Shown: positions 2 through 18,538 of the stretch, piece after piece | Layout of the letters: each line of letters opens with the position of its first letter | Position numbering within the stretch: position 1 is the first letter of the stretch | Origin: a virus | Reading direction: 5' to 3' (one strand) | DNA: 20,172 bases | IMG/VR virus record: IMGVR_UViG_3300043409_002103 | Coordinates: 1 to 20,172 of that record | Position numbers and translations under genes: made by a program | The notes under the pieces: model-generated | What the model saw: only the letters and a program-made list of their open reading frames with translations | What the model was told of the DNA's origin: nothing | Databases searched by the model: none

Positions 2-1804
2 TTTATAGAAGCAGAACTTACTGATGATGAGATTCAAGCATACAGAGATGGTGGTTATATAGTAGAAGATATATCTGTATCAGAATTAAATACAATGGAT
101 AAAGGTGGTATATTCAAAAGAAGAAAAAAGAAACAAGAAGAAAAAGAACAACTAGAGTACAGACCACCTGTAGAAGTTAATGATGAACTGTATGAGTCAG
201 TAACTCCTTTTCCAGAAGCCCCAGAAGACTTTAAACAAGGTGTAGGTAACATTAAAGAGATTGAGAAAAAAGCACAAGCTCCGGACTGGTTAAATTTTTC
301 TAATGAGTATGAAAAGAAAAACTCTAAGCAAGCATTCATTGATGAGAAAAAAAGAGAATATCTTAAAAGTACTAACAAAGGTTTAAATAAACTTGCTGGA
401 AACAGTATGGAAGACTTTCCAGAGGCTGTAGAAAAAAACTTTGAAAAAGCATATGACTATAAAAAGAATACTTATGTAGCTAAAAAACTAGGTAAAGAAT
501 ATGGATTCTCTCCTAACAGAAGAGGAGAGTGGGTAGACTATTTATCAAAAGGTGAAAGAAATATAATTGCTAATTCTAAATTTGAATCTAAACTACAACC
601 AAGTTTATGGGATAAAACTTTAGCAGGACTTGTAACATTAACCACACCATTTAGTGCTCAGGCTAATGATGCTATGAATAGAGGTGAGTTACCTGGATTA
701 ACAAAAAGAGAACAAAGAGAAATCAAAGATTCTGAACTTTTTGGTATTCCAGTTGGAGGTTTAGAAGCTTTAGCAGGATGGGACGCTCCAGGTGTTGCTA
801 TAGCAAATGCATTAGAACAATCTGGTAATTCTGGTTATGGTGCAGGTTATAGAGAAGCTCCAGGAGTATTATCAGCACAACCTATGGCTAATGTAAAACC
901 GGAACAAGCTATGGTATTAAATCCTCTTAATTATATGTTACCTTATGATATAGTGGCTGCAGGTCCTTCATTAGTTAAAGGGATGGCATCAGCAATTAAA
1001 GGAGCAGGCACTGCAGCTAAAACAACTGGTAAATTTTTAACTGAAGCAACACCTTTAAAAAATGCCTCTAAAATAAATCCTAGTAATGTAGATGAATTAG
1101 TTGATTTATGGAGAATACAAGAAAAAAGTGGAAAAACATTTGCGCAACTTGCTGAAGAAGGAAAAATAAATCCTTTATTTAATAATCCAGCAACTTTAGC
1201 TAGAAAAGCAGAAGAAGAAAAATATTTTGGTCAATGGTTTACAAAAGATAAAAATGATTTTGATTTTTATAAAGCTGATAGAGAATTTACAAATCCTGAA
1301 ATAATAAATTTAAAAGTCCCAAAATCTAAGTTAGAACAATATAGTCAATATGATAAATCTTTAAGTAGGGCCCCTGATAGAGAATTTGTAATACCTCTTG
1401 AAGAACAAAAACTTTATAAAGAATTACCTGGTTCAAGTAATAAATCTTTTATGGGTAAAGTAAAAGATTATTTTGATAGACCACCTGGACCATTAATGCT
1501 TGGTATGTCTAAAGGAGCTGTGTTTAATAAAGAAATAAAAAACCCAGATTACTTCCTAGACTTAATGAAGATAAACAAGTACAGTGCAAAAAATAAAAAA
1601 TACTTTGAAGATCTTATAGCTACTGTCAAAAAACAAGGCAATGTAGCAAGTGAAAGACAATATGATGAGTTGCAAAGACTTAAAACCGGAGACATGAACT
1701 ATGGTAAAAAAGGTTATGCAAGAGGAGGTATTGTTTCTGAACTTTCTAAAAGAGAAATAAATGATCTTGTATCACAAGGATACATAGTAGAAGATGTAGA
1801 TTAA
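2..1804 (+). CDS. Putative virion protein, 5'-partial, with C-terminal GYIVED tag and possible ART-like segment
   Basis: The frame is open from base 2 through the TAA at 1802-1804, so the gene probably begins before the window. The first in-window ATG (95) has no ribosome binding site and is a doubtful start. Numbering from that ATG gives 569 residues. Residues 1-60 are basic then acidic (a KRRKKKQEEKE run). Residues about 280-320 are Gly/Ala-rich. Residues about 335-440 hold a compact region with W339-R340, W381-F382-T383, a VPKS strand and R429-E430-F431 followed by VIP; this order resembles R/T/E motifs of ADP-ribosyltransferase-like folds, but that is a hypothesis. A 20-residue motif ending in GGYIVED at nt 14-73 recurs as the last 20 residues before the final Asp (nt 1739-1798). 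The position upstream of other virion-type genes suggests a structural or cargo protein. I do not recognise a named family. Confidence 0.8.
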   Translation, partial: FIEAELTDDEIQAYRDGGYIVEDISVSELNTMDKGGIFKRRKKKQEEKEQLEYRPPVEVNDELYESVTPFPEAPEDFKQGVGNIKEIEKKAQAPDWLNFSNEYEKKNSKQAFIDEKKREYLKSTNKGLNKLAGNSMEDFPEAVEKNFEKAYDYKKNTYVAKKLGKEYGFSPNRRGEWVDYLSKGERNIIANSKFESKLQPSLWDKTLAGLVTLTTPFSAQANDAMNRGELPGLTKREQREIKDSELFGIPVGGLEALAGWDAPGVAIANALEQSGNSGYGAGYREAPGVLSAQPMANVKPEQAMVLNPLNYMLPYDIVAAGPSLVKGMASAIKGAGTAAKTTGKFLTEATPLKNASKINPSNVDELVDLWRIQEKSGKTFAQLAEEGKINPLFNNPATLARKAEEEKYFGQWFTKDKNDFDFYKADREFTNPEIINLKVPKSKLEQYSQYDKSLSRAPDREFVIPLEEQKLYKELPGSSNKSFMGKVKDYFDRPPGPLMLGMSKGAVFNKEIKNPDYFLDLMKINKYSAKNKKYFEDLIATVKKQGNVASERQYDELQRLKTGDMNYGKKGYARGGIVSELSKREINDLVSQGYIVEDVD

Positions 1805-1823
1805 ACTTATTAGGTTTATTAAA
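1802..1823 (+). repeat. 22-nt stop-codon hairpin repeat, copy 1
   Basis: The stop codon lies inside a 7-bp inverted repeat, TAAACTT-ATT-AGGTTTA (one T-G wobble), followed by TTAAA. The copy at 7169-7190 matches 20 of 22 bases, and both differences fall in the 3-nt loop. A T-rich run follows at about 1828-1836 (TTTATTTTT), so a weak intrinsic terminator or a transcript-processing signal is possible. An operator near a late promoter is the alternative. Confidence 0.5.
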
Positions 1824-1861
1824 TAAATTTATTTTTAGTATATTAATACATAAAGCATATT
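1824..1861 (+). promoter_or_regulatory. A/T-rich leader, possible late promoter
   Basis: This is all the remaining non-coding sequence before the ATG at 1862. It reads T-rich, then TTTTAGTATATTAATA, then an A-rich stretch and ATTATG. The leader before 7234 shares the order TTTTA-ATAT-ATA-A-rich-CAT-ATTATG. There is no Shine-Dalgarno sequence, which is usual in Bacteroidota. The promoter assignment is an inference from similarity between only two leaders. Confidence 0.25.
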
Positions 1862-4996: not shown

Positions 4997-7171
4997 ATGA
5001 AAGTTAGAATAACAAAAATACCTCAAGCCAGAACTGGATACCAAGTTCAAGGAGGATTAGTAAATGATGTACCAGCTATGGGTGGTGCAGATTATAACTC
5101 TTACATAGGAATGAAAAAACCTAAAGTAGGTTCTACAATTAGTAAAGTTCCTAGGAGTAAAGCTAATCTAGAGGCTGAAGGTGGAGAAACTGTAATTGGT
5201 AATATTGATGGTAGTGGTATGCCATCTTTTTATACTATTACTGGACCAAGACATTCTGCAGGAGGTGTACCATTAAATCTTCCAGATGACAGTTTTATCT
5301 ATAGTGACACACAGTCAATGAAGATATCAGATCCTGTTATTCTTAAAATGTTTAATAAGCCTGTTAAGAAAGGCGGATATACTCCAGCAGAACTCTCTAA
5401 ACCATATGATCTTAATAAATATAGAAAAGTACTTCAAGATCCTGACTCAGATAAGATAGCTAGAAATACAGCTGAGTTAATGATTAAGAACTATACTGTT
5501 AAACTTGGAGCATTAGCATTAGCACAAGAATCTAAGAAAGGGTTTCCTCAAGGAATTCCAGCAGTAGCTGAACCTTATATGAAAGCTAATGGTATTAGTC
5601 CAGAACAATTAATGCCAGAAAAAGCTTTACAAAAACAAAAGATGCAACAACAGGCTCCGGAAGATGAAGGTCAGGAACCTAATATAGAACCAGAAGCACA
5701 AGAGGAAATGGCTACTATGGAACCTGGAATGTCTCCAGATCAAATGGGTATGCCACAAGAAGATACAATGATGCAAATGGGTGGTATGCTAGAACAAGAC
5801 TATTCATTTCCATACTATCCTACTGAAATGGCATATGGTGGATATTTACCTCAAGCTGTAGATGGTAGACCGGTTGATACAAAAAAAGTTGGTAGAGATG
5901 ATTATAATAAAAGTAATTGGGAAACTAGAAAAGATGCTCAAGGAGAATATAAATATAATAAGTCTTCAGGTGCAGAAAGAACTTATAAAGGTGAAAAAAG
6001 AATAGCAGGAACAGGTTCAGGAGGTGCTTATGGACCAGCTGCGATTAAATCACTGTGCCGTAGATTAATGGAAGGAGCCACAATTGAACAATTAGCATCA
6101 GAAGGTAAAGGTAAGGTATCTGGTTTAACTAAATTATTAGCTCATTGTATTCCTGCAGCTGAAGAAAAATTTAGAGAAAAAGAAGAAGCTATTGCAACAG
6201 AACCGGAAGAAATTTCAAAAGATGAGTGCGAATGTAAAGATGAGAAAACTGGAGAAAGTTATATGGTAGGTAAAGATGCTGATGACAACTGTCTTCCATG
6301 TACTACTGAAAAGAAAAGATGTGAGTGTCCTGATGGATCTGATCCTGGTATGGATGAAGACGGTAACTGTAATGATTGTGAATCTGAAGAAGAAGAAGAA
6401 GTAACAGGAGATGTGGAAACTCCAGCAAAACCAGCTGAATGGTGGTTACAAGATACTGTAAATACTATGGGTGCATTTGGTGATCTTATGAGTACTAAAA
6501 AATATATGCCTTGGGAAGCAAGAGTTGATCTTGAAGAACCAAGACCTACATTCTTAGACCCTACAAGAGAACTTGCTGCACAATCCGAACAAGCTAATAT
6601 TGCTGCACAAGCATCTGCACAGTTTGCAGGACCTCAAGCATTAGGTTCTAGACTTTCTGCAATACAAGGACAAGGTGCTTCACAAGCTGCAAATACTCTT
6701 TCTAGAATTAATAATCAGAATGTAAACATTGGTAATCAATTTGAAGGTCAACAAGTAGGTGTAAGAAACCAAGAGAACATGCTTAATCAAGCTATGAATA
6801 CTAGAGTATATGATAAAAATACTATTGCTAATCAACAGTTTGATAATTCTATTAAAGCTGGTAGAGCTAATATGAGAAATCAATATAATACAGCTGTTAC
6901 TAATAAATGGAAAACAGATGCTCTAAATCAGATGTATCCTAACTATCAAACATCTCCAGGTGTAGGTGGTAAAGTTGGATACACGCCAACTAAGAAAGAA
7001 ATTGATTTACAAAAACCAGGACAAACTGAAGCAGAATATTACAAAGATTTACTTGCGGCAGGTCTTCCTCCTAAAGAAGCAGGTCAGTTAGTAGTAGATA
7101 AATTTAAGTCTAAAAAAGGTGGAGAGTCTCAAAGAGGATACATATATACTAACTGGCCAATCTTCCTTTAA
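4997..7171 (+). CDS. Putative virion protein: EAEGGE/HSAGGV domain, Cys repeats, Asn/Gln-rich helical C-terminus
   Basis: This is a 724-residue protein. The N-terminus (KVRITKIP, then a QGG at 18-20) echoes the previous gene. Residues about 55-115 form a conserved-looking domain with E59-A-E-G-G-E64, GPRH (83-86), GGVPLNLP and a FIYSD strand. From memory, similar segments recur in uncharacterised proteins of Bacteroidota phages, but no function is known to me. Residues 205-285 are Pro/Gln/Met-rich with two Gly-Gly motifs. Residues 411-461 hold two cysteine units, C-E-C...C-x2-C (411/413/432/435 and 442/444/458/461), plus isolated C354 and C384. The rest (about 520-680) is Ala/Gln/Asn-rich and probably helical, like internal or ejected virion proteins. 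The gene starts 3 bases after the previous stop, so the two are probably co-transcribed. Its stop codon lies inside the second hairpin repeat. Confidence 0.85.
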   Translation: MKVRITKIPQARTGYQVQGGLVNDVPAMGGADYNSYIGMKKPKVGSTISKVPRSKANLEAEGGETVIGNIDGSGMPSFYTITGPRHSAGGVPLNLPDDSFIYSDTQSMKISDPVILKMFNKPVKKGGYTPAELSKPYDLNKYRKVLQDPDSDKIARNTAELMIKNYTVKLGALALAQESKKGFPQGIPAVAEPYMKANGISPEQLMPEKALQKQKMQQQAPEDEGQEPNIEPEAQEEMATMEPGMSPDQMGMPQEDTMMQMGGMLEQDYSFPYYPTEMAYGGYLPQAVDGRPVDTKKVGRDDYNKSNWETRKDAQGEYKYNKSSGAERTYKGEKRIAGTGSGGAYGPAAIKSLCRRLMEGATIEQLASEGKGKVSGLTKLLAHCIPAAEEKFREKEEAIATEPEEISKDECECKDEKTGESYMVGKDADDNCLPCTTEKKRCECPDGSDPGMDEDGNCNDCESEEEEEVTGDVETPAKPAEWWLQDTVNTMGAFGDLMSTKKYMPWEARVDLEEPRPTFLDPTRELAAQSEQANIAAQASAQFAGPQALGSRLSAIQGQGASQAANTLSRINNQNVNIGNQFEGQQVGVRNQENMLNQAMNTRVYDKNTIANQQFDNSIKAGRANMRNQYNTAVTNKWKTDALNQMYPNYQTSPGVGGKVGYTPTKKEIDLQKPGQTEAEYYKDLLAAGLPPKEAGQLVVDKFKSKKGGESQRGYIYTNWPIFL

Positions 7172-7190
7172 ACTTAACAGGTTTATTAAA
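7169..7190 (+). repeat. 22-nt stop-codon hairpin repeat, copy 2
   Basis: This is the same 7-bp stem, TAAACTT and AGGTTTA, around loop AAC, again containing the TAA stop of the preceding gene and followed by TTAAA. It is 20/22 identical to 1802-1823, while both flanks diverge at once. Both stem arms are conserved and only the loop differs, which argues for a functional hairpin or dyad rather than chance. No strong T-run follows, so a simple intrinsic terminator is not clear. Confidence 0.5.
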
Positions 7191-7233
7191 CTTAAAAAAT
7201 TTTAATAGTTTTACAATATAGATAAAAAACATT
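7191..7233 (+). promoter_or_regulatory. A/T-rich leader, possible late promoter
   Basis: This is non-coding sequence between the hairpin repeat and the ATG at 7234. It contains TTTTACAATATAGATA followed by an A-rich run and CATTATG, in the same order as the leader before 1862. If the homing endonuclease gene inserted here, this leader originally belonged to the gene now starting at 7875. Function is inferred only. Confidence 0.25.
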
Positions 7234-7875
7234 ATGGCTACGTATCTACAATCAAATTCCGGAATATATAAGATCACTAGTACGGCTAGTGGTAAGATAT
7301 ATGTTGGTTGTGCCTCTAATGTAAGAACTAGAATAAATGGACATCTCTATGATTTAAGAAGAGAAAAACATAATAATAATTATTTACAAAGAGCCTGGCT
7401 TAAATATGGTGAAGAAAATTTTGTTTTTGAGATAATTGAAAAATGTAGTGTAAATGATTTACATGCTAGAGAACACTATTGGGTTAATGAACTTAATTGT
7501 TTAGATAAAAGTATTGGTTATAATATTAAACCTACTGATCCTAATGGTTGCTCTATTCAATCTGAAGAAACAAAAGAAAAATTAAGACAAGCGAATACAG
7601 GTAAAAAACCATCCTTAGCATGTACTGAAGCTGGTAAAATATACAATGCTTCAGAAGAATGCAAGATGAATTTAATAGAAGCTAGAAAAAAATTAAAAGA
7701 TATAGATTTTAATATTGTTAATGCACACAAAAGAAAATCTATAAAAAATATAATTACAGGTGAAATATATGAATCTTTAGCAATGGCTGCAAATATTTTA
7801 AATATTCCTAAATATGAATTATCAAGACGTATCTTAGGAAAGAGAAAAAACAATACTAATTTAATTTACTTATAA
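7234..7875 (+). CDS. GIY-YIG homing endonuclease with NUMOD3 and NUMOD1-like DNA-binding motifs
   Basis: This 213-residue, probably free-standing, homing endonuclease would cut DNA at a specific site and promote its own spread. The GIY-YIG nuclease domain covers residues about 9-100, with G10-I-Y12 and Y23-V-G25. By alignment to phage T4 I-TevI from memory, the catalytic residues are R33 (I-TevI R27), H37 (H31) and E80 (E75, in REHYW), all present. Residues 109-126 (E-E-T-K-E-K-L...NTGKKP) match the NUMOD3 pattern, and 168-213 (ITGEIYESLAMAANIL...GK...NLIYL) match a NUMOD1/IENR1 helix-turn-helix like the I-TevI C-terminus. The protein therefore looks intact and active. It lies alone among virion genes. 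Its first six residues, MATYLQ, nearly copy those of the downstream gene (MSTYLQ), and its stop overlaps that gene's ATG by one base. No split exon is visible, so it does not look intron-borne. Confidence 0.93.
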   Translation: MATYLQSNSGIYKITSTASGKIYVGCASNVRTRINGHLYDLRREKHNNNYLQRAWLKYGEENFVFEIIEKCSVNDLHAREHYWVNELNCLDKSIGYNIKPTDPNGCSIQSEETKEKLRQANTGKKPSLACTEAGKIYNASEECKMNLIEARKKLKDIDFNIVNAHKRKSIKNIITGEIYESLAMAANILNIPKYELSRRILGKRKNNTNLIYL

Positions 7876-10800
7876 TGAGTACTTATCTTCAGGGCGTCAC
7901 AGATTATATACCACAAGCGCAACCATTTCAACCGGATCTGAACTTTTATGCAAATGTTATGCAGACAAAGCAGACCCAGTATGACACAAACTGGAAGGCC
8001 TTAAGTAAAATGTACAGTCAGTATTATTATGCTGATTTAACACGTGATGGTAATATAAAAAAGAAAGATAGTTATTTAGATAATATTGAATTTCAACTTA
8101 AAAGAGTATCTCAGTTAGATCTTTCTTTAGAGCAAAATGCTACTCAAGCTACACAAGTATTTAAACCTTTTTATGAAGATAAAGGCTTAATGAAAGATAT
8201 GGCTTGGACTAAAAACTATAGTAATCAATTAAATAAATCAGAAATTTTTAGAAATTCCACAGATGAAAAAAGCAGATCCCAATATTGGGAAGATGGTGTA
8301 CGTGGTATGAACTATTTAAAAGATGAATTTAAAGAAGCTACAGAAGAGGATGCTATGGGTTTTCAAAATGCTGAATATGTACCTTATGTAAACCTTCAAG
8401 AAAAAGCTGAAAAAATTGCAAAAGATGCAGATTTATCTATTGAGAAAGTAGAGTTCAGTGATGGAGGTAAGTTTATTATTAAAACTAAAAATGGCGAAGC
8501 TCTTACTGAACCTTTACAAAAGTTATTTGAATCACGTTTAGGTACTGATCCTGGCATTCAATCAGTATATAAAATGAAAGCCTATGTAGATAGAAAAGAT
8601 TATGCATATAGTAATGCTGCTCAATTTGGAGGAGATAAAAATGCATCAGAGATGAAGTATCTTGAAAATAGCTTTAATGTGTTAAAAGCTCAAAGTGATC
8701 TAAGATATAAGCAGCTTCAAGTAAATACACAAGTATATGATAATAAAATAAAAGATTTACAAAGTCAAGTTGATAACGGCACTGCATCACCAAATGCAAA
8801 ATTAATGATTGAGCAATATAAAATGAATAAAGATATTAATGATAAAGTTTTGGCCCGTGCTGAATCTGAATCTAAAATGCTTAATGGTGGTCAATCTAGT
8901 ACAGCAGTAACAACTACAGGTTTTTCAAATCCCTATGGAGACTTAAAATCATTAAGATATAAAGTTGATAATGGAATGGCTTCAATGTTAATGCAGAAAG
9001 ACTTGAATGAAGCAGCAAATGTATATGCATTCAGAGAAATGGAAATGGACATAGAAGCCAATCCATATAAAATCTTAGAAGAGAAACAAAGAAATAGTAT
9101 GCAATTAATTGCAGCTAGAGAAAGAGCATCTATGAATGTTGCAGGTTATAAAATGAAACTTCAAAAACAAAAAGATTATGAAGATGGCATTTTAGAAAAT
9201 GATCAAGGATACAGAGATGAGCAAGGAAACATACAGTTATATGAAGATCAAAATATTGTCACAACAAAAGAAAGAACTTCTGGTAACACTACAGATGCAA
9301 CTAACTTCAAAAATAGAAGTAGAGATATTTCTAATATGACTAAACAAGATTTACTTGATCCATATTTTAAAACTACATTTTCTGTATTAGATCAGGCAAT
9401 AGCCGGTAAAAAAATCAGTAAAGAAGATGCCGGTAAAATACTTGGTTATAATAAAAACCAAAATATATCTTTAGATGACTTCATTAAGAAGTATAATACA
9501 TATGGAGATCCTTGGTTAAGAAAACAAGTAGGATCTAAAGGTATTAGAGATATAAGAAATAAAATGAATGAGTGGGTTGGGGACAATAGAGAATTAAGCT
9601 TGTTTACTCAAAATGGTGAAAAAACACCAATCTATAAACAATATAGAGATGCTAATATGCAAATGCATGATTACATGCTATATATTAAAGCAGATGAAGA
9701 CTGGAGAAAAGAATCATCAAAATCTGTTGTAACAGACCTTACAAGGGATGGTTATGGAAAAGCTAAATTTTTATATAATGATGATGGTAATCTAAGATCA
9801 GAAAAAGAATACATCAATGAGTTATTAAAAAATAAAGCAATATCTAAAGAGGATTATGCGGCTCACTTAGCAAAAGTTAAAGAAGAAAAAGGAGAATCTG
9901 CTTATAATGGTTATCTTACTATGGCTAGTATGCTAATGGGTAAAGAGCCAGGATGGTTGAAAATGTTAAATAACATAAACAGCTATCTTGAACCAGTTGT
10001 TAATCCTAAAACTTATGCTGCTAAAAAAATATATAAAGGTCTTACAGAAGGCTCATCTGACTTTGATTACAATACTCTTGTAACTGAAGCAGGTAAGTCA
10101 TATTCAAGTAAGGAAGTTATTAAGAAAGCGCCTGCTAGAATACCAACAAAAGGACCAACAGATCCTGGTACAGGTTTATATACTATAGGAACATCATTAA
10201 TAAGTGTAAATCCAAAAGGACTTAGCCTAGGTAAAGTAAAATGGAATGAAGTTGCAAATGATTTAAGTGGTTTTGATTGGTCAGGTATAACAGATAGGGT
10301 ATCCTTATATGGTATTTCTAAAGATGTATATGATAAATCAGGCAACAAACATAATGATATGGGTAAAGCTGTGTTTGACAAAATACGTCAAGATATGCAA
10401 AAAGGCAAATCTTCCTTAAATGTTTTTGAACTTGAGGTTGCTCCAATAGCGGGAGCTTCAGGTAGAACATCTGCTGTAGTTGTTAAACCAAATACAGAAT
10501 GGATAAAAGCCAATACATCTAAACTAAATTCAAAAGGAGGTATATCTGAAGCTGGTTTATTTACTCCAAATGAAGCACAAGCCATTATGAAAAATGGTCT
10601 TACTTATTTCATGGATAATAGAAAAATGAATAACAGTATGTATAAGTCAGCGTATCAATCTCCAATAGAAAGTTATGTTGAGATCTTTGATAAGTATGAA
10701 GTAAACAGTATTGGTGGAGATCCAATGAAATCATTTAAAGTTGAAAAGAATACATTGGGTACAGGAGATTATACTACTACAGTATCTTATCCTATATTTA

Positions 10801-10964
10801 ATCCGGACAATGGTAAAATGGAACAAGAGGTATATAGAAACAATATTGGTTTAACTGGTGAAAACTTAACTACTTTAAGAAACAATATTGTGTATAACCT
10901 AATGGATGATCTGGATTTTGAAAATACTTTAAAATATAATAACTTTGAAAAAGAAGGTAGATAA
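7875..10964 (+). CDS. Putative large internal virion protein, MSTYLQ-GVTDYIPQ family
   Basis: This is a 1029-residue protein without recognisable enzymatic motifs. The N-terminal 110 residues (TDYIPQ-QPF-PDLNFY, then KQTQYD, LTRDGNIKKKD and LDLSLEQN segments) look strongly conserved. From memory, they resemble the start of uncharacterised proteins in uncultured Bacteroidota phage genomes; this needs a database check. Residues about 260-480 are rich in charged helix and likely coiled coil. The C-terminal third is mixed alpha/beta with GG-, Ser- and Asn-rich loops. There is no signal peptide and no convincing membrane span. Translation is probably coupled to both neighbours: ATG overlaps the previous TAA (TAATG), and its own TAA overlaps the next ATG. 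Size, lack of cysteine and position next to the 2524-residue protein suggest an internal or ejected virion component. The homing endonuclease gene appears inserted at its 5' end. Confidence 0.85.
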   Translation: MSTYLQGVTDYIPQAQPFQPDLNFYANVMQTKQTQYDTNWKALSKMYSQYYYADLTRDGNIKKKDSYLDNIEFQLKRVSQLDLSLEQNATQATQVFKPFYEDKGLMKDMAWTKNYSNQLNKSEIFRNSTDEKSRSQYWEDGVRGMNYLKDEFKEATEEDAMGFQNAEYVPYVNLQEKAEKIAKDADLSIEKVEFSDGGKFIIKTKNGEALTEPLQKLFESRLGTDPGIQSVYKMKAYVDRKDYAYSNAAQFGGDKNASEMKYLENSFNVLKAQSDLRYKQLQVNTQVYDNKIKDLQSQVDNGTASPNAKLMIEQYKMNKDINDKVLARAESESKMLNGGQSSTAVTTTGFSNPYGDLKSLRYKVDNGMASMLMQKDLNEAANVYAFREMEMDIEANPYKILEEKQRNSMQLIAARERASMNVAGYKMKLQKQKDYEDGILENDQGYRDEQGNIQLYEDQNIVTTKERTSGNTTDATNFKNRSRDISNMTKQDLLDPYFKTTFSVLDQAIAGKKISKEDAGKILGYNKNQNISLDDFIKKYNTYGDPWLRKQVGSKGIRDIRNKMNEWVGDNRELSLFTQNGEKTPIYKQYRDANMQMHDYMLYIKADEDWRKESSKSVVTDLTRDGYGKAKFLYNDDGNLRSEKEYINELLKNKAISKEDYAAHLAKVKEEKGESAYNGYLTMASMLMGKEPGWLKMLNNINSYLEPVVNPKTYAAKKIYKGLTEGSSDFDYNTLVTEAGKSYSSKEVIKKAPARIPTKGPTDPGTGLYTIGTSLISVNPKGLSLGKVKWNEVANDLSGFDWSGITDRVSLYGISKDVYDKSGNKHNDMGKAVFDKIRQDMQKGKSSLNVFELEVAPIAGASGRTSAVVVKPNTEWIKANTSKLNSKGGISEAGLFTPNEAQAIMKNGLTYFMDNRKMNNSMYKSAYQSPIESYVEIFDKYEVNSIGGDPMKSFKVEKNTLGTGDYTTTVSYPIFNPDNGKMEQEVYRNNIGLTGENLTTLRNNIVYNLMDDLDFENTLKYNNFEKEGR

Positions 10965-13900
10965 TGGCAGATGAAACACCTTTTAGCCCGCTAGATGCGT
11001 TAGGTCCAGAATATGGAGATATAAATGCACCAAGATTAGATGCTCAAGGTTTGTCTCCTTTTGAAGGAGATATGCTTAGAGACCCTAAGATTAATTTTCC
11101 AAAAGTTGAAAGATACTTTCCGGTATTACCTAAAGTTGGTAATCTTGATAGGCCTAATAGAGCAATTGAACAAAATGTTGTAAGAACTCCTGCAAATAAT
11201 TCTAGCATAGCTCCTAAAAGAATATCAGGTAGTCAAAATAAAGCAAGCACACGTCAGTATTTAGATGCTCTTTTTCAAGCTAATCAAAATAAAAATTCAT
11301 ATGCAAAAATATATTCATACAATGCTGGACCAGATGGTAACGCATTTTATAAAAGATATGCATCATATGGACAAGAAACATTTGATAAGATTGGGTTTCA
11401 TCCATTAAGAGATAATGAATCAAACTTTAATGCACAAACAACTAAGTGGGATGATTTCTCTAGAATGATGACACATTCATTTGGGCCTTTGTTTGCAAGA
11501 GGTTTTGTATCAGGTCCAAAGAGTTTATGGAAAATGGCTCATGGTGACTTTACTAGTGCAGATAGAGAAGATGCTACGGCATATGAAGAAGCTGCTGCAA
11601 TTGGTCAATCAAGTAAAGGTGGTCTTTTCAGCTTTGCTAATAATACTATGATGAACTTTGGTTATACAGCCGGTATTATAGGAGAAGCCATTGTTGAAGA
11701 AATAGGTGGTGCATTACTTGCAGCTCCAACAGGAGGTGTTAGTTTATTTGCAACAACTGCAAATATAGCTACTAAGGTTCCTAAAGCATTAAGTTTAACT
11801 GAAAGAGCTTTTAATGGTTACAGTGCTGTAAAAAATACTTTAAAAAGTTTTGACAGTATGCAGTCAGCAAGAAAGTTTTGGAATGCTGCATCATCAAATA
11901 AGACTATATCTGCAATTGGTAGAGGATTGAATCCTTTAGAAAATACATTTGAAGCTATGAGAGCTATAAAAGGTGCAGACAATATTACAGACCTTGCAAC
12001 ACTTTCAAAGACAGCAGGCGGTTTCTATAGAGATATTAGAAAGATTAATATGGCTTTATCTGAAGCTAGATTAGAAGCCGGTATGGTTGAAAATAAAGTA
12101 TATGATAAACTTTATCATGAAGCTTACATGGCAAAAGGTGAACCGCCTAATAATAAAGAACAAGCTGCTCTAGAAAAACAATCTAAAGAAGCATCATTAG
12201 AAACTTTACTTACAAACACAGCTCTTATATATGCATCAAATGCAATTACCTTTAATAACATCACAGGACCCAGAGGAGGCTTAAGAAACTTTATGAAATC
12301 TACTAAAGATGATATATATCATATGGCATCTAAAGAAGGTCAAAAAGACTTTGGTAAAATAGGTAAGGTAATTTATGATAAAACTGCTAAAAAGTTTGAC
12401 TTAGAAAAATCTGGATTTAAAAGCTGGTTAAAAGGTTGGAAAAGAGATCCCATATATAAATCTGTATTTGGTACTATAGGTTACTTTAAAGCTAATTTTA
12501 CTGAAGGTATTCAGGAAAACTTTCAGGAAGTAATTGCGCAGGCTAATGAAAGATATTATGTTGATAGTTACAAGAGCCCTACATTGCAAACACAATTATA
12601 TTCTAAAGGTGTAATCTCGGCTGATTTAAAACCTAAAAGTAGTTACTATTCAGAAGGTTTAAAAGACCAATTTGGTTCTCAAGGTTTTGAAACATTTGCT
12701 TCTGGATTCTTTATGGGAACCTTAGCTGCTCCAGTAAATGCAGCAATTCCTTTTTTAAGCTCTACTTATAATAGAACATTTAATAAAGAAGAGTTTGCTA
12801 AATGGGAAAAAGATGAAGTTGCCATTGCTACAAAACTTAAGAAGGAACTTAATGAAGTATCAATGAAGGACTTTATGTCTGATAGAATTATGAATACAGG
12901 TGCTCAAGATTTGATTAGCAAAATAAGAACCAATGCTAGTAAGAAAGAGGGCCTAGATTCAGAAACTGAATCATACATAAATGCTGTTGGTACTATGAGA
13001 AGAACAGGTACCTCTGATATTTTTATTGATAACTTAAAATCATTTAAAGAATATGATGATAAAGAGTTTGCTGATGCTTTAAAAATTACAGAAGACCAAG
13101 TACCTAAATATAGAAGTAGAATTGATAATGCGGTTACTAGACTAACCGACATTAATAATATTTTTAATTCAGCAGAAAGAAAGTATCCTAATCCAGCAAG
13201 TTTAGATAACCTAGGTGAGCCCGGATCTGATGAGTATATTGCAAAAGTAGCGTTATATAATGGTTGGAATAGATCTATAAATAACTATGCATTTTTTACG
13301 GAAGCCTATCAGGATGTAAGAAAAAGAAGAAGTCAGATACAAGATAAGTATAGTAATAATCCAAACTTTCAAAGTTTAAACAGTACAGAAAAAACTTTAT
13401 TGTTTGAACCTGAAAGAATAAAAGATGAAGTAAAAATATTGAGTACTCAACTTGCTATAGAAAAAGATGGGGAAAATGATTCTAAAAAAGTATTTGATTT
13501 AGAAAATAACATTAAAGCATTAACTGACTATTCTAATGCTCATTTAGCATTTGATAACTTTTTTAATAGAGCAGACTATGCTAAAGTTATAAAAGAAGAA
13601 CTCCAGAAGAAAACAGGTAAGGAACCTACTCCAGAAGAAATTGCAGAAGAGTTAGATAATAAGTTTGGTTCATTAGACAATGAAGAGCGCAAGCTATTTC
13701 ATATGATTAATCTTAAGAATGCTCATAATAGTTATTTAAAAACACTTGCTAAAGATAAAGGAGAATATATTTTTGATGAAAATGTAGAAGAAGGTTTTGG
13801 ACTTTTAATAGATTATTTAAAACTTGGGCATGAGAAACAAAGTCTTGCTGAGTATGTAGATATCATGAATGACCCAGCTCAGTTCATGGAATCAGCTAGA

Positions 13901-16900
13901 AGAAATGCTGAGTGGATGAGAAAGTTTTATGATAAAAGAGTAAAATACTTTGAAGATCTTATTAACTCTGAGTTAGGTAAAGTAAGAGACAATGCTTTTT
14001 TGAACAAACTTGCAGATGACCAATTGTATTTAAATAAAGAAGACATGGAAAACTATCTTGGAGACAAGAATATTCCACCTTCTGAAATCTATGATGCTAA
14101 ATCAAAACAAGTATATCCTAAAGGTAGTAAAGAATACAATGAAATATATGCTGAATACTTTGAAAAGAGAGCTAAATTAAAATCACAATTAAGTCCAAAG
14201 AAAACAGGTGTAATCAAACAGACCTATGAGGATAAGATAAATGAGCTTAATGCTAAGAAACAAGAAGAGATTGATGCGTTACCTACTGAGACATTTAAAA
14301 ACTATGGTGAAGACCTACAAAGAAAAGGTAAAAATAAATCTGTAACTATTCAAGAACTAAATGAGCAGTTACAACCTGAAGAGTATGTAGAAGTAGATTA
14401 TAAAAATGCCATTGAACCAATGGTGTTTTATAAAGATGCTGAAGGTAATTTAAGATATGAAACTCCAGATGGAGCCTATGTTGAAATGGCTGAACTTAAA
14501 ACTAGATTCACGGAAGCTAAGAGGTTTAGTTATGAGCAAAAACCAGATGAGTCTAAAGTGAAAGAGATTGAAGATAGATATAAGGCTAGAATTGAGGAAA
14601 TCATGGAAGCCTACAATTCAGACTTACAAGATATAGAGGCCACTATTCCTTTTGAAGAAGTTACTGCTGACACTAATTTAAGCACAGCGGATCTTAAAGA
14701 TTTTAGAAACATGCTGTATGAAAAGTTTGTATCTGACTACTTGGATAATTTATCACAAGAAGAGCAAGATGCAATTTATGCAGATGAAACTGTAATGGAT
14801 CTAGAATTTGAGAAATGGTACAGACTTCCGGAAAACAAGAAATACTTTGATGAGTATAACAAACAGAACAAACCTAAAGCTGTAAAAAATAATATAGAGT
14901 TTGATTTTGAAGGAGCTAAACTAAATACTTCAGATTTAACTCTTCCTGAAATAATCAATTATAGAGATTCTATTAATCAGAAGATAACTAATCTAGAAGA
15001 AATAATAAGTGAAGCTGAAGAAATAGAAGGTGAAGAAGAAGCCATTGCTATATCTAAGAAAGAAAGAAATGAATTAAGAACTGATTTAAGAAATCTTAAT
15101 ATTGTTATTCAAAGAAGACAATATGAAAACTTTTCTGAGCCCATTAAAGAAGCCGTTATAAAAATACAGAAGCTTATTACTGCTCAGAAAAATGTTGAAG
15201 AAGACTATCTTCTTACTGAAGATGACCAGGTAACAGGTTTAAAAAAAGGAGAGAAAGCATATAGAATAAATGGAGAAATTCATAGAAGGACTACTAATGC
15301 CATACAAGATGTACTTGGTAGTGAATATGAATATCAAGGTAAAGCTCAAGTAGACTCTGCTTTTAATAATACTATTGGTAAAACTGGTTTAAATGAAAAA
15401 TCTATAAATGAATTTATAGACACATTAAATGGATTACTAGCTTCAGATAATTTACCAGGAGCAAATAGTTTGTTTATTGAAAAAATAGAAGATCAGTTAA
15501 AAGCTCTTGATGGATTAACACCTGAACAGATTAAACTTGAAAGAGAGAAAGAAGTACTGTTAAAGTCTCTAGATAAAAAGATAGGTGACATTATTAAAGC
15601 TGAAGAAGATAGATTACCACAAAGAGTAGATAATCTAAATGTACAAAGACAAGAAATTGAAAGACAGCTTTTAGAACTTGAAAATAAAATCAAAGGTACT
15701 AAATCTTCCACAACTACTACAACTACTACAGATACTAAAGCTGATATAGAAAGAAGATTAAAAGAAGAAGCAAATACTTTAGAAAAAGAGTTTGCAAGTA
15801 TTAAAGTTAAAGATGGCGGAACTCTTTTTGGTAAAGATGGAAGTTTGTATATAAATGCTTTAGATGCTGCTGTTTATGGTATAAAAGAATCATTTAAAAT
15901 TATATTACCAGAATACCAAGAAAAAGCAGATAGATATATTTTTATCACTAAGTATTTTGATCAAGCTGTTAAAAAAGAACTAGCTGCTTTAGGAAGTACT
16001 ACAGATACTAAAGCTGATGTAGAAAGAAGAAGACAAGAAGACTTAGATAAAACTAATGCTCAAATTGAACGTGTAGAAAAAAGAGGTGATTCTTTTATTA
16101 GAACAAAAGTTGAAGTTTATACTACTTTAAGTAGTAATGAAACATTAGATGAAATTATAATAATTACATTTAAAGATGGAAGTAGAATATTTAGAACAAC
16201 AGATGTTAAAACAGGAGAATTAATTCTTGATGAAAAAATAAAAAAGGATAATTCCACTACAAATGAAAAATTTATTGAAGAATGGGTTGGCAACTTAGAT
16301 AACAGTTTAAAGAAAATATCAGAAGATAATAATCCAAATAAAACTGCTGTAGATAAAATCAATGCTAAATATGCTGCAGAATTAGAGGCATTAAAACAAC
16401 CTACTAACACTACTAAAGCAACAGAAGAAGAAGCCTTAGCGCATAATACTACTAGAGATATTATTATGAATATGTTTGCTGAAGAAACATATCAAGATAG
16501 TAGAGATGCTGGTAACTTCTTAGATGATGCTAAAGATTACTTAGAGTCTGGTGTTAAACCAAAGTTTGATGAAGCTAAGATAACAGAAGAAGCATATAAT
16601 AATTTGTTCAGCCCTGAAGGTTTATTAACTACTATTAAAAAAAAGGTAGATACTGGAGAATTCTTCTTAGTAGGCAGAGGACTAGTAGTATATGATTCAA
16701 ATATTAATAAACTTAATAAAGATAAAGATAGAATTGCTGGTGAGATTGACTTACTTATAGCTACTAAAGATGGTATATTCATTGTAGATATTAAGTCTGG
16801 AGAATCAACAAAATGGAGAAACTTTAATAAGTTAAGCACAGATAAAGACAGAAACTATTCTAAAAGAGAAGAATATACTTTACAGCAAGGAGCCTATGCT

Positions 16901-18538
16901 ACTATGCTAGAGAAAATGATAGACTATCCTGTAGCTGGTACTGCACTATTAGCAATACAAAGGAGTTCAAATAAAGAAACTAATACAATTGTATCTGCCG
17001 GAAAACCTGAAGCTTCTTCTATATACTATGATGTAACCTTTTTAAAAGATGAAAAAGGTAATTATAAAAGAAACAAGTATGGTGAATTATTAAGTAAAAC
17101 AGGAACTACTAAGTTTTCTGATTGGATGACTCCTTTATATAGAGAAACAGTACAAGATAAACTTGACATCTTATTTCCACGGAAAGCTGTAAAATTTGCA
17201 CCAGGTCAGAAAGATAAAGTAACTAAGAAATTTAACAGTTTCTTGGTTGATCTTCAAGCAATCACTAATGAAGATACTGATAAAAATATAAAAGCATTAG
17301 AGGAAGTAGAAACAGCTATTGAAGATTTTGTAAAAGTTAATAATGTTGAGATACCGGATAATGTAAAAGAAGCATTAAATGATAAGAAAACTCAACTAGG
17401 TAAAACAGTTGGTACTAATTTGATTGATGAAGTTATAAGTAAGTATGAAGCACAAGTTTCTAAAAGCAAATCTACATTAGATACTCTTGTAGCTAATCTA
17501 GCTAAGATTAAATCTAATGTATCATTTGATGAAATAGACTTAGAAGATGACAGTGACTTTATCCAAGAACAGCTAGAGGCGGATAAAGAATTTAAAGATA
17601 GATTTGAAAAACATGCTACTACATTTGTAGGCCGTAGTGGTGTCCCTAGTATAGGTCAATTAGTAGCTGTAGATACCCTTAATTTATCCGGTATTATAAC
17701 AGATTCCGAATATAAAGCAATAGCAGCTGAAGATTATAACATGGAAAATGTATCTAAACTAATCCATGATGCTGTTAGTAGAATTCAGTATTTAAAAGTA
17801 AACAGTCAAACAGCTGAAGAATCAAATAAATTTAAAATATACCAAAGTCAGATCATGAATGTAATGACCAGTAGTAAAATCAATCAGTCAAATATTGGTG
17901 CTGTTACTAGTTTAAAATTGGCCAAAACTAAGATGGCAGAGGGTAAGTTTAAAGATGCATTAGATATTATAAATGCTGAGAAATTTAAAATAGAATCTAA
18001 AATAAGAGATTCTAAAAATGCTTATACTACAACAGAACTACAGAAAAAAGCTGATGAATTAACTAAGGTTGCAGAAGCTATAGTAACTACAACAGGTTAT
18101 GTTGAAGAACAGTTTGAAATACCTGTAGAAGAAGAGGTTCAAGGAGATGAAGAAGAGATAGATTATGAAGAAATGTTTGACAAAATAATTCTTAAAAAAG
18201 GTATGACTCTTTTTTCTAAAAATGCTAAATTTACAGTTAGATCCTTCAATATAGTAAAGAAAGAAGTTACCATTAAGGATGATATGAATAGAGAATTTAC
18301 TATTACTATGGATGAACTAAATAAAAACTATACAACTGAAGAGGATACCCTTGGTCCTGAAGTAACAGAACCGGTTGAATTAACTCCAGAAGAAGAAAGC
18401 TTTGTAAAAGAATCTCAAGATAATGTAACTGACATATTAGATGATGCACCTACGACAGATGTATTAATGAAAGAAGCTGATAATATATCTTTAGATAAAG
18501 CTGAAGATGACCTTTTAGATGACTTAAACTGTAAATAA
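10964..18538 (+). CDS. Giant putative virion/ejection protein with embedded PD-(D/E)XK nuclease domain
   Basis: This is a 2524-residue multidomain protein. Residues 1-230 are polar. About 232-262 (GIIGEAIVEEIGGALLAAP...) and about 575-600 (FASGFFMGTLAAPVNAAIPF) are hydrophobic or amphipathic and could insert into a membrane during genome delivery. About 630-1560 is long charged helix and coiled coil. A seven-Thr linker (1583-1589) precedes the first of two TDTKAD-[IV]-ERR units (1590 and 1681); the second block ends with an INAKYAAELEAL segment (1799-1810). Residues about 1827-1990 carry a RecB/Cas4-type nuclease signature: H1827, G1926-E-I-D1929, V-D1942-I-K1944 and Q1974-x3-Y1978. A small beta-rich segment lies near 2400-2450. 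TAATG overlaps couple it to the upstream gene, and an AAGGTAG sequence precedes the ATG. I saw no DxDxD RNA polymerase motif. The virion role is inferred from context. Confidence 0.85.
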   Translation: MADETPFSPLDALGPEYGDINAPRLDAQGLSPFEGDMLRDPKINFPKVERYFPVLPKVGNLDRPNRAIEQNVVRTPANNSSIAPKRISGSQNKASTRQYLDALFQANQNKNSYAKIYSYNAGPDGNAFYKRYASYGQETFDKIGFHPLRDNESNFNAQTTKWDDFSRMMTHSFGPLFARGFVSGPKSLWKMAHGDFTSADREDATAYEEAAAIGQSSKGGLFSFANNTMMNFGYTAGIIGEAIVEEIGGALLAAPTGGVSLFATTANIATKVPKALSLTERAFNGYSAVKNTLKSFDSMQSARKFWNAASSNKTISAIGRGLNPLENTFEAMRAIKGADNITDLATLSKTAGGFYRDIRKINMALSEARLEAGMVENKVYDKLYHEAYMAKGEPPNNKEQAALEKQSKEASLETLLTNTALIYASNAITFNNITGPRGGLRNFMKSTKDDIYHMASKEGQKDFGKIGKVIYDKTAKKFDLEKSGFKSWLKGWKRDPIYKSVFGTIGYFKANFTEGIQENFQEVIAQANERYYVDSYKSPTLQTQLYSKGVISADLKPKSSYYSEGLKDQFGSQGFETFASGFFMGTLAAPVNAAIPFLSSTYNRTFNKEEFAKWEKDEVAIATKLKKELNEVSMKDFMSDRIMNTGAQDLISKIRTNASKKEGLDSETESYINAVGTMRRTGTSDIFIDNLKSFKEYDDKEFADALKITEDQVPKYRSRIDNAVTRLTDINNIFNSAERKYPNPASLDNLGEPGSDEYIAKVALYNGWNRSINNYAFFTEAYQDVRKRRSQIQDKYSNNPNFQSLNSTEKTLLFEPERIKDEVKILSTQLAIEKDGENDSKKVFDLENNIKALTDYSNAHLAFDNFFNRADYAKVIKEELQKKTGKEPTPEEIAEELDNKFGSLDNEERKLFHMINLKNAHNSYLKTLAKDKGEYIFDENVEEGFGLLIDYLKLGHEKQSLAEYVDIMNDPAQFMESARRNAEWMRKFYDKRVKYFEDLINSELGKVRDNAFLNKLADDQLYLNKEDMENYLGDKNIPPSEIYDAKSKQVYPKGSKEYNEIYAEYFEKRAKLKSQLSPKKTGVIKQTYEDKINELNAKKQEEIDALPTETFKNYGEDLQRKGKNKSVTIQELNEQLQPEEYVEVDYKNAIEPMVFYKDAEGNLRYETPDGAYVEMAELKTRFTEAKRFSYEQKPDESKVKEIEDRYKARIEEIMEAYNSDLQDIEATIPFEEVTADTNLSTADLKDFRNMLYEKFVSDYLDNLSQEEQDAIYADETVMDLEFEKWYRLPENKKYFDEYNKQNKPKAVKNNIEFDFEGAKLNTSDLTLPEIINYRDSINQKITNLEEIISEAEEIEGEEEAIAISKKERNELRTDLRNLNIVIQRRQYENFSEPIKEAVIKIQKLITAQKNVEEDYLLTEDDQVTGLKKGEKAYRINGEIHRRTTNAIQDVLGSEYEYQGKAQVDSAFNNTIGKTGLNEKSINEFIDTLNGLLASDNLPGANSLFIEKIEDQLKALDGLTPEQIKLEREKEVLLKSLDKKIGDIIKAEEDRLPQRVDNLNVQRQEIERQLLELENKIKGTKSSTTTTTTTDTKADIERRLKEEANTLEKEFASIKVKDGGTLFGKDGSLYINALDAAVYGIKESFKIILPEYQEKADRYIFITKYFDQAVKKELAALGSTTDTKADVERRRQEDLDKTNAQIERVEKRGDSFIRTKVEVYTTLSSNETLDEIIIITFKDGSRIFRTTDVKTGELILDEKIKKDNSTTNEKFIEEWVGNLDNSLKKISEDNNPNKTAVDKINAKYAAELEALKQPTNTTKATEEEALAHNTTRDIIMNMFAEETYQDSRDAGNFLDDAKDYLESGVKPKFDEAKITEEAYNNLFSPEGLLTTIKKKVDTGEFFLVGRGLVVYDSNINKLNKDKDRIAGEIDLLIATKDGIFIVDIKSGESTKWRNFNKLSTDKDRNYSKREEYTLQQGAYATMLEKMIDYPVAGTALLAIQRSSNKETNTIVSAGKPEASSIYYDVTFLKDEKGNYKRNKYGELLSKTGTTKFSDWMTPLYRETVQDKLDILFPRKAVKFAPGQKDKVTKKFNSFLVDLQAITNEDTDKNIKALEEVETAIEDFVKVNNVEIPDNVKEALNDKKTQLGKTVGTNLIDEVISKYEAQVSKSKSTLDTLVANLAKIKSNVSFDEIDLEDDSDFIQEQLEADKEFKDRFEKHATTFVGRSGVPSIGQLVAVDTLNLSGIITDSEYKAIAAEDYNMENVSKLIHDAVSRIQYLKVNSQTAEESNKFKIYQSQIMNVMTSSKINQSNIGAVTSLKLAKTKMAEGKFKDALDIINAEKFKIESKIRDSKNAYTTTELQKKADELTKVAEAIVTTTGYVEEQFEIPVEEEVQGDEEEIDYEEMFDKIILKKGMTLFSKNAKFTVRSFNIVKKEVTIKDDMNREFTITMDELNKNYTTEEDTLGPEVTEPVELTPEEESFVKESQDNVTDILDDAPTTDVLMKEADNISLDKAEDDLLDDLNCK
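15725..15757 (+). repeat. 33-bp direct repeat inside the giant gene, copy 1
   Basis: This copy encodes TTDTKADIERR and differs from 15998-16030 at one base (ATA versus GTA). The copies are 273 bp apart, in frame. The identical codon choice points to a recent duplication or recombination rather than only protein-level selection. Confidence 0.85.
15998..16030 (+). repeat. 33-bp direct repeat inside the giant gene, copy 2
   Basis: This is the second copy of the segment, encoding TTDTKADVERR, with 32 of 33 bases identical to 15725-15757. The 80 or so residues between the copies and those after the second copy are unlike each other. The repeat may therefore mark exchangeable module borders. Confidence 0.85.

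Follow-up and report, generated by a model that had tools for sequence, protein, structure and literature searches.

A probable homing cassette of phages with a borrowed gene start and a recoded restart

Homing endonucleases are thought to owe their survival to a location in introns, inteins or intergenic gaps, in which they cause little harm. The nearest described analogue of the locus analysed here comes from fungal mitochondria, in which mobile ORFs with replacement C-termini have been reported for atp6 of Allomyces macrogynus, credited as the first such case, and for atp6, atp9, cox2 and nad3 of Glomus (PMC3630166; see also PMC4019555). In these, an endonuclease ORF, mostly of the LAGLIDADG and once of the GIY-YIG type, has entered a protein gene and brings a copy, foreign and largely synonymous, of the part that it displaces. 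This copy takes the place of the C-terminus and is fused to the host gene upstream; the native end stays behind downstream and in some genes is not expressed, and spread between relatives has been inferred (PMC3630166). The SegA-SegG genes of T4-like phages, according to the part of PMC2988022 drawn on here, encode enzymes of the same superfamily as the present one, are free of introns and usually point in the direction of their neighbours, several of them using existing phage promoters; they are intergenic and cut at sites remote from their own position, and neither borrowed start codons nor a recoded restart are described for T4-like endonucleases in that part. Engineered home-and-rescue drives of the HomeR type target an essential gene for homing and supply a recoded, uncut rescue piece, by means of CRISPR and in insects (PMC7968924).

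The present locus lies in the window, i.e. the whole stretch of 20,172 nucleotides that was analysed (IMG/VR record IMGVR_UViG_3300043409_002103, positions 1 to 20,172). As in the fungal mobile ORFs, an endonuclease ORF stands within a protein gene beside a copy of the displaced part; however, it is the N-terminus that is replaced, the displaced start is kept as the start of the endonuclease, the copy comprises just 8 codons and the carriers are phages. The phage cassette is the N-terminal mirror image of the fungal arrangement. The window endonuclease is free-standing, being neither intron- nor intein-borne, with its own stop codon and a complete gene downstream, and it differs from the HomeR drives in being a natural protein endonuclease of phages with a very short rescue piece. 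A preliminary description of the window knew of no case with exactly this layout. This holds for phages in the open-access literature, which the search covered to the exclusion of subscription papers, but the fungal ORFs provide a near analogue at the C-terminus (PMC3630166).

The paired starts, the endonuclease and the displaced gene

The leader, the borrowed codons, the endonuclease body, the restart and the displaced gene are on the plus strand of the window. The endonuclease ORF (7234-7875; 213 amino acids) begins with ATGGCTACGTATCTACAA, translated as MATYLQ, and the downstream ORF (7875-10964; 1029 amino acids) with ATGAGTACTTATCTTCAG, translated as MSTYLQ; the two starts share 13 of 18 bases, and the stop codon TAA of the former overlaps the ATG of the latter by one base. 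This near copy, to which the preliminary description had drawn attention, is real, and the same layout was found at no fewer than 16 dereplicated occupied loci of related phages (18 with L256 and L180), which were collected from metagenomic contigs by the endonuclease body, by the downstream gene and by DNA pattern. Its presence at 16 related loci excludes chance, though the carriers partly share ancestry and the P values given below treat such non-independent loci as independent. At L180 (442-1083), an endonuclease of this family precedes a divergent gene starting MSTYLQGVTDTGFNPVQYS, the usual form being MSTYLQGVTDYIP.

The endonuclease body with its stop codon (7252..7875) carries a GIY-YIG catalytic domain (PF01541, E 7.1e-10, residues 9-88) and a NUMOD3-like tail, NUMOD3 itself scoring below the Pfam cut-off (18.2 vs 20.4 bits). 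The match to phrog_314 (E 3.4e-35) indicates kinship with phage homing endonucleases and was taken to stand for a modular NUMOD-type DNA-binding region. Purifying selection, evident from a dN/dS of 0.2-0.4 in comparison with relatives, suggests that the gene encodes a functional enzyme. The AlphaFold model of the endonuclease was of low confidence (pLDDT 50, residues 1-8 low) and was set aside.

The leader now placed 5' of the endonuclease (7170..7233) contains, as described earlier, an inverted repeat, AAACTT-AAC-AGGTTT (7170-7184; 6-bp stem, 3-nt loop), and the hairpin form is present in 68 of 114 leaders of relatives. As RNA, the window leader shows no unusual stability (z +0.6), and a stable hairpin structure is unsupported there. 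Two intergenic gaps of the window (1802-1825 and 7165-7193) contain similar TTTA..AAACTT inverted-repeat motifs, which may recur as a regulatory element across this phage group.

The displaced gene (7875..10964), recovered at 80 loci, encodes a mostly helical protein that is conserved in crAss-like phages by fold similarity and is a putative virion or cargo protein. Its model (pLDDT 75) matches the fold of uncharacterised proteins of Virus NIOZ-UU157 and the crAss-like phage cr127_1, while a PDB fold search returned nothing significant, and no sequence match was found in phage records, the PDB or bacterial genomes. Its earlier designation as a virion gene is plausible. The neighbouring protein of 2524 amino acids (10964-18538) shows a weak match (7% coverage, E 1e-4) to a putative RNA polymerase subunit (virion RNA polymerase) of crAss-like phages, which is the only sequence handle on phage affiliation in the window; neither a capsid nor a terminase hallmark gene was recognised there.

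Empty alleles, cassette boundaries and recoding

The search of viral contigs with the 1029-residue protein yielded 80 relatives, most of them without the endonuclease. In most, the leader directly precedes M[A/S]TYLQGVTDYIP, and it is continuous with the displaced gene in the endonuclease-free loci L001, L038, L188 and L215. The first 18 nt of the endonuclease gene (7234..7251 in the window) are identical to those of the empty allele at 18 of 18 positions in four pairs (window/L001, L005/L038, L076/L188 and L084/L249) and at 17 of 18 in L182/L215; the leaders agree at 57 of 60 positions between the window and L002, an endonuclease-free locus in which the leader lies directly before the MATYLQ gene, and at 60 of 60 between L005 and L038. 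The downstream start in the closest pairs agrees with the empty allele at only 11-13 of 18 positions (5-7 bases differ), whereas the rest of the displaced gene is 83-99% identical. Against the nearest empty allele, the endonuclease start scores 15.7 of 18 and the downstream start 12.1 of 18 (Wilcoxon P = 8e-4), two rows of this comparison being conservative, since the nearest 'free' allele of L092 is L256, really a carrier, and that of L059 is L066, a scar. The earlier proposal that the endonuclease inserted into the start of its neighbour and took over the leader and start is thereby borne out: the endonuclease has no start region of its own between intact neighbours, its first six codons, start included, belonging to the displaced gene. 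The presence of occupied and empty alleles within close relatives indicates horizontal movement into one allelic site.

What moves is evident from the phylogenies. In the endonuclease tree, calculated with the borrowed codons excluded, the nine genes with an ATGAGT restart form one clade (100/98), while the carriers are scattered over the tree of the downstream gene, where supported branches force no fewer than 12 changes. In partial Mantel tests the restart co-varies with the endonuclease body (P = 0.003) and the first codons of the endonuclease with the recipient gene (P = 0.047, marginal); the cross-relations, i.e. restart with recipient gene and endonuclease start with endonuclease body, were not supported. 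The cassettes of L092 and L256 (L256:417-1054) are identical over 638 bp except for 4 bases, all of which lie in the borrowed codons (MATYIQ vs MSTYIQ), the borrowed start of L256 being of the recoded (MSTYI) type. At L233, a borrowed MATYLPG adjoins a MATYLPG gene. The trees, the Mantel tests and the L092/L256 pair together place the mobile unit between codon 7 of the endonuclease and about codon 8 of the restart. Allele comparison thus indicates that the endonuclease body and the recoded 8-codon restart (7875..7898, MSTYLQGV) travel jointly and that the first six codons belong to the recipient. The preliminary description was right as to a duplicated start and a recoded copy of the target; it was mistaken in limiting the stretch to six codons, as eight are recoded, and in deriving the copy in place from the start of the recipient, as the restart arrives with the endonuclease.

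The recoding is sharply bounded. Compared with the nearest empty allele, 5.42 of the 7 codons 2-8 are changed in 12 occupied loci, against 1.75 of 7 in 68 control pairs of empty alleles of the same overall identity (85%; P = 2.6e-7), L256- and L066-type alleles being left out of this comparison. No excess of change is seen at the same 12 loci in codons 9-15 (P = 0.28) or 16-26 (P = 0.38) of the downstream gene, and codons 2-6 of the endonuclease itself change like the controls. The restart is recoded mainly at synonymous sites, with amino-acid changes at codons 2 and 6: AGT is the second codon in 7 of the 16 occupied alleles and in 1 of the 83 empty ones, and CAA at codon 6 in 2 of 16 occupied and 61 of 83 empty alleles (P = 7e-6). 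The recoding differs between two cassette lineages, with AGT at codon 2 in one and AGT, TCT or CAG at codon 6 in the other. Tailoring of the recoding to the local allele was considered and rejected, because the identity of the two starts within a genome is not lower than when shuffled between genomes; the restart is no more unlike the borrowed start of its own genome than those of others, which argues for a generic non-target and not for tuning to each recipient.

Proposed mechanism and competing explanations

The preferred reading, to which a probability of about 0.85 is assigned, is that of a homing cassette inserted after codon 6 with a borrowed start and a recoded, mobile restart, cleavage and immunity being the inferred parts of it. 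The borrowed start, the recoded restart, the joint mobility of endonuclease and restart and the purifying selection are established by comparison of sequences. The leader, ATG and first six codons of the recipient serve as the start of the endonuclease; after its stop codon a second copy of the gene start (codons 1-8) follows and the gene resumes at codon 9, so that the displaced gene retains a complete N-terminus. The endonuclease would cut the uninterrupted gene start (about codons 1-8 and flanks) of a co-infecting phage, and repair would copy the cassette in, homology being provided on the left by the leader and codons 1-6 and on the right by the gene from codon 9. Whereas insertion ordinarily removes the target of the endonuclease, rebuilding the start would bring that target back, and the rebuilt start must therefore be altered. 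The left copy of the target being split by the insertion and the right one being unlike it through recoding, neither would be cut again; the recoding would thus block cleavage and probably keeps the neighbouring gene working and no longer cut. According to the part of PMC2988022 drawn on here, the cut sites of free-standing T4 endonucleases lie at least hundreds of bases away from the endonuclease gene, and codons 1-8 need not, for that reason, be the target.

According to one competing explanation, the restart is an ordinary gene start of a distant phage that was carried along passively and has no role in cleavage resistance. The restart does follow the endonuclease lineage without being tuned to the local allele, as such import would have it. 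However, the distance of the recoded starts from all empty alleles (5.19 of 7 codons) exceeds that of even distant empty alleles from one another (3.88 of 7), at synonymous sites too (rates of 0.68 and 0.51, respectively); the recodings of the two lineages differ from each other and converge solely in being unlike the target, and so regular an end at codon 8 is not what one would expect of a fragment carried along. Passive import is therefore considered unlikely.

It is similarly doubtful that the recoding mainly prevents deletion of the insert by recombination between the direct copies of the start, and not cleavage. The longest exact run common to both starts is just 3-9 nt, a difference that would leave almost no direct repeat for such deletion, and alleles that have seemingly lost the endonuclease exist (the L066 scar and L216). 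But 18 nt, even if repeated verbatim, would offer little length for homologous recombination, and protection from deletion leaves the amino-acid changes at codons 2 and 6, as well as the changes at codons 7-8, outside the repeat, unexplained. A role of this kind is compatible with the homing cassette.

That MATYLQ is a conserved N-terminus of the endonuclease family, or a chance likeness unrelated to the neighbour, might be supposed from its close relatives, all of which start M[A/S]T[Y/F][L/I][Q/P]; those relatives, however, all lie at this site. In a search with the endonuclease body that did not require the N-terminal motif, all eleven relatives of at least 59% identity among the matches listed are located here and start with MATY, whereas the next ones among them (at most 47% identity) mostly align from residue 4 or later and have different starts, and two relatives in bacterial and archaeal genomes align from residues 5 and 8. 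The endonuclease relatives listed from elsewhere thus do not begin with TYLQ, and the start at this site varies with the recipient (MATYIQ, MATYLPG, MSTYIQ) even where the remainder is identical. The L092/L256 pair and the 18/18 identity with empty alleles refute this explanation.

GIY-YIG endonucleases are often encoded in introns, in frame with the upstream exon, but a self-splicing intron or intein joining an exon MATYLQ to the rest of the gene has next to no probability here, as an Rfam scan of 6500-9000 gave no match at E<=5, no intein domain was found, the endonuclease ORF ends in a stop codon and, with a complete gene start after the insert, splicing would duplicate the N-terminus.

Loss, re-invasion and recurrence at the insertion site

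Further alleles appear to represent later stages of the cassette's history. At L066 (3918-4001), some 24 bp from the 3' end of the endonuclease gene are left between the leader and the ATG of a recoded start, which, from the sequence, is a deletion scar. In the endonuclease-free L216 (IMGVR_UViG_3300034121_000940) the leader is joined precisely to the recoded start of L084; the insert was probably lost precisely at the ATG, with the recoded start kept. L042 and L021 may be similar loss alleles.

The same slot is occupied by HNH-AP2 endonucleases at five loci (L011:3504-4000, L030:3501-4000, L058:3504-4000, L424 and L425), the domains having been tested in three of the five. Like the GIY-YIG cassettes, they lie directly before the same gene with its start altered: codon 7 is Asn in 4 of 5 and codon 6 Pro in 1 of 5, and the start is unlike the empty alleles. 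They differ from the GIY-YIG cassettes in having a start codon and N-terminus of their own, MATYLQ not being borrowed. Close kin exist in three states, empty (L032), with the GIY-YIG (L174) and with the HNH endonuclease (L058). The scar, the recoded insert-free alleles and the HNH endonucleases mark the slot as a hot spot for endonuclease insertion. L256 possibly arose when a cassette re-invaded an allele that another lineage of cassettes had immunised.

Beyond this site the layout was not seen at the endonucleases of the crAss-like phages cr56_1 and cr128_1 or of Flavobacterium phage FL-1, and was absent from about 70 other GIY-YIG loci surveyed, with the exception of one unrelated locus. There (L146:1787-3666), in an unrelated phage, a GIY-YIG/NUMOD3 endonuclease starting MGAVDQVIAS directly precedes a Mu-F-like head gene starting MGAIDTVIS. 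Relatives of this head gene start MGGADQAVAD and MGALDQALID, so that the Asp-Gln of the family is present in the endonuclease and absent from the gene. L146 looks like an independent invention of the same trick, judged from one example and from distant relatives compared at the protein level.

On balance it appears likely that the cassette is a natural home-and-rescue element, in which a selfish endonuclease takes over the start of an important phage gene and brings with it, as an inherent part of what moves, a recoded restart that is proof against cleavage, and whose lineages may re-invade immunised alleles. This rescue-copy logic was later engineered into home-and-rescue gene drives. The locus offers a repeated and well-resolved case of an endonuclease that lives inside a gene without splicing and would pay for it with a recoded rescue copy. 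The cut site is predicted to fall within or close to a 24-bp stretch, so that the idea lends itself to direct testing. Related phages provide empty and occupied alleles as well as scarred and apparently re-invaded ones, from which the cycle of homing and the way in which immunity to the nuclease evolves can be read base by base.
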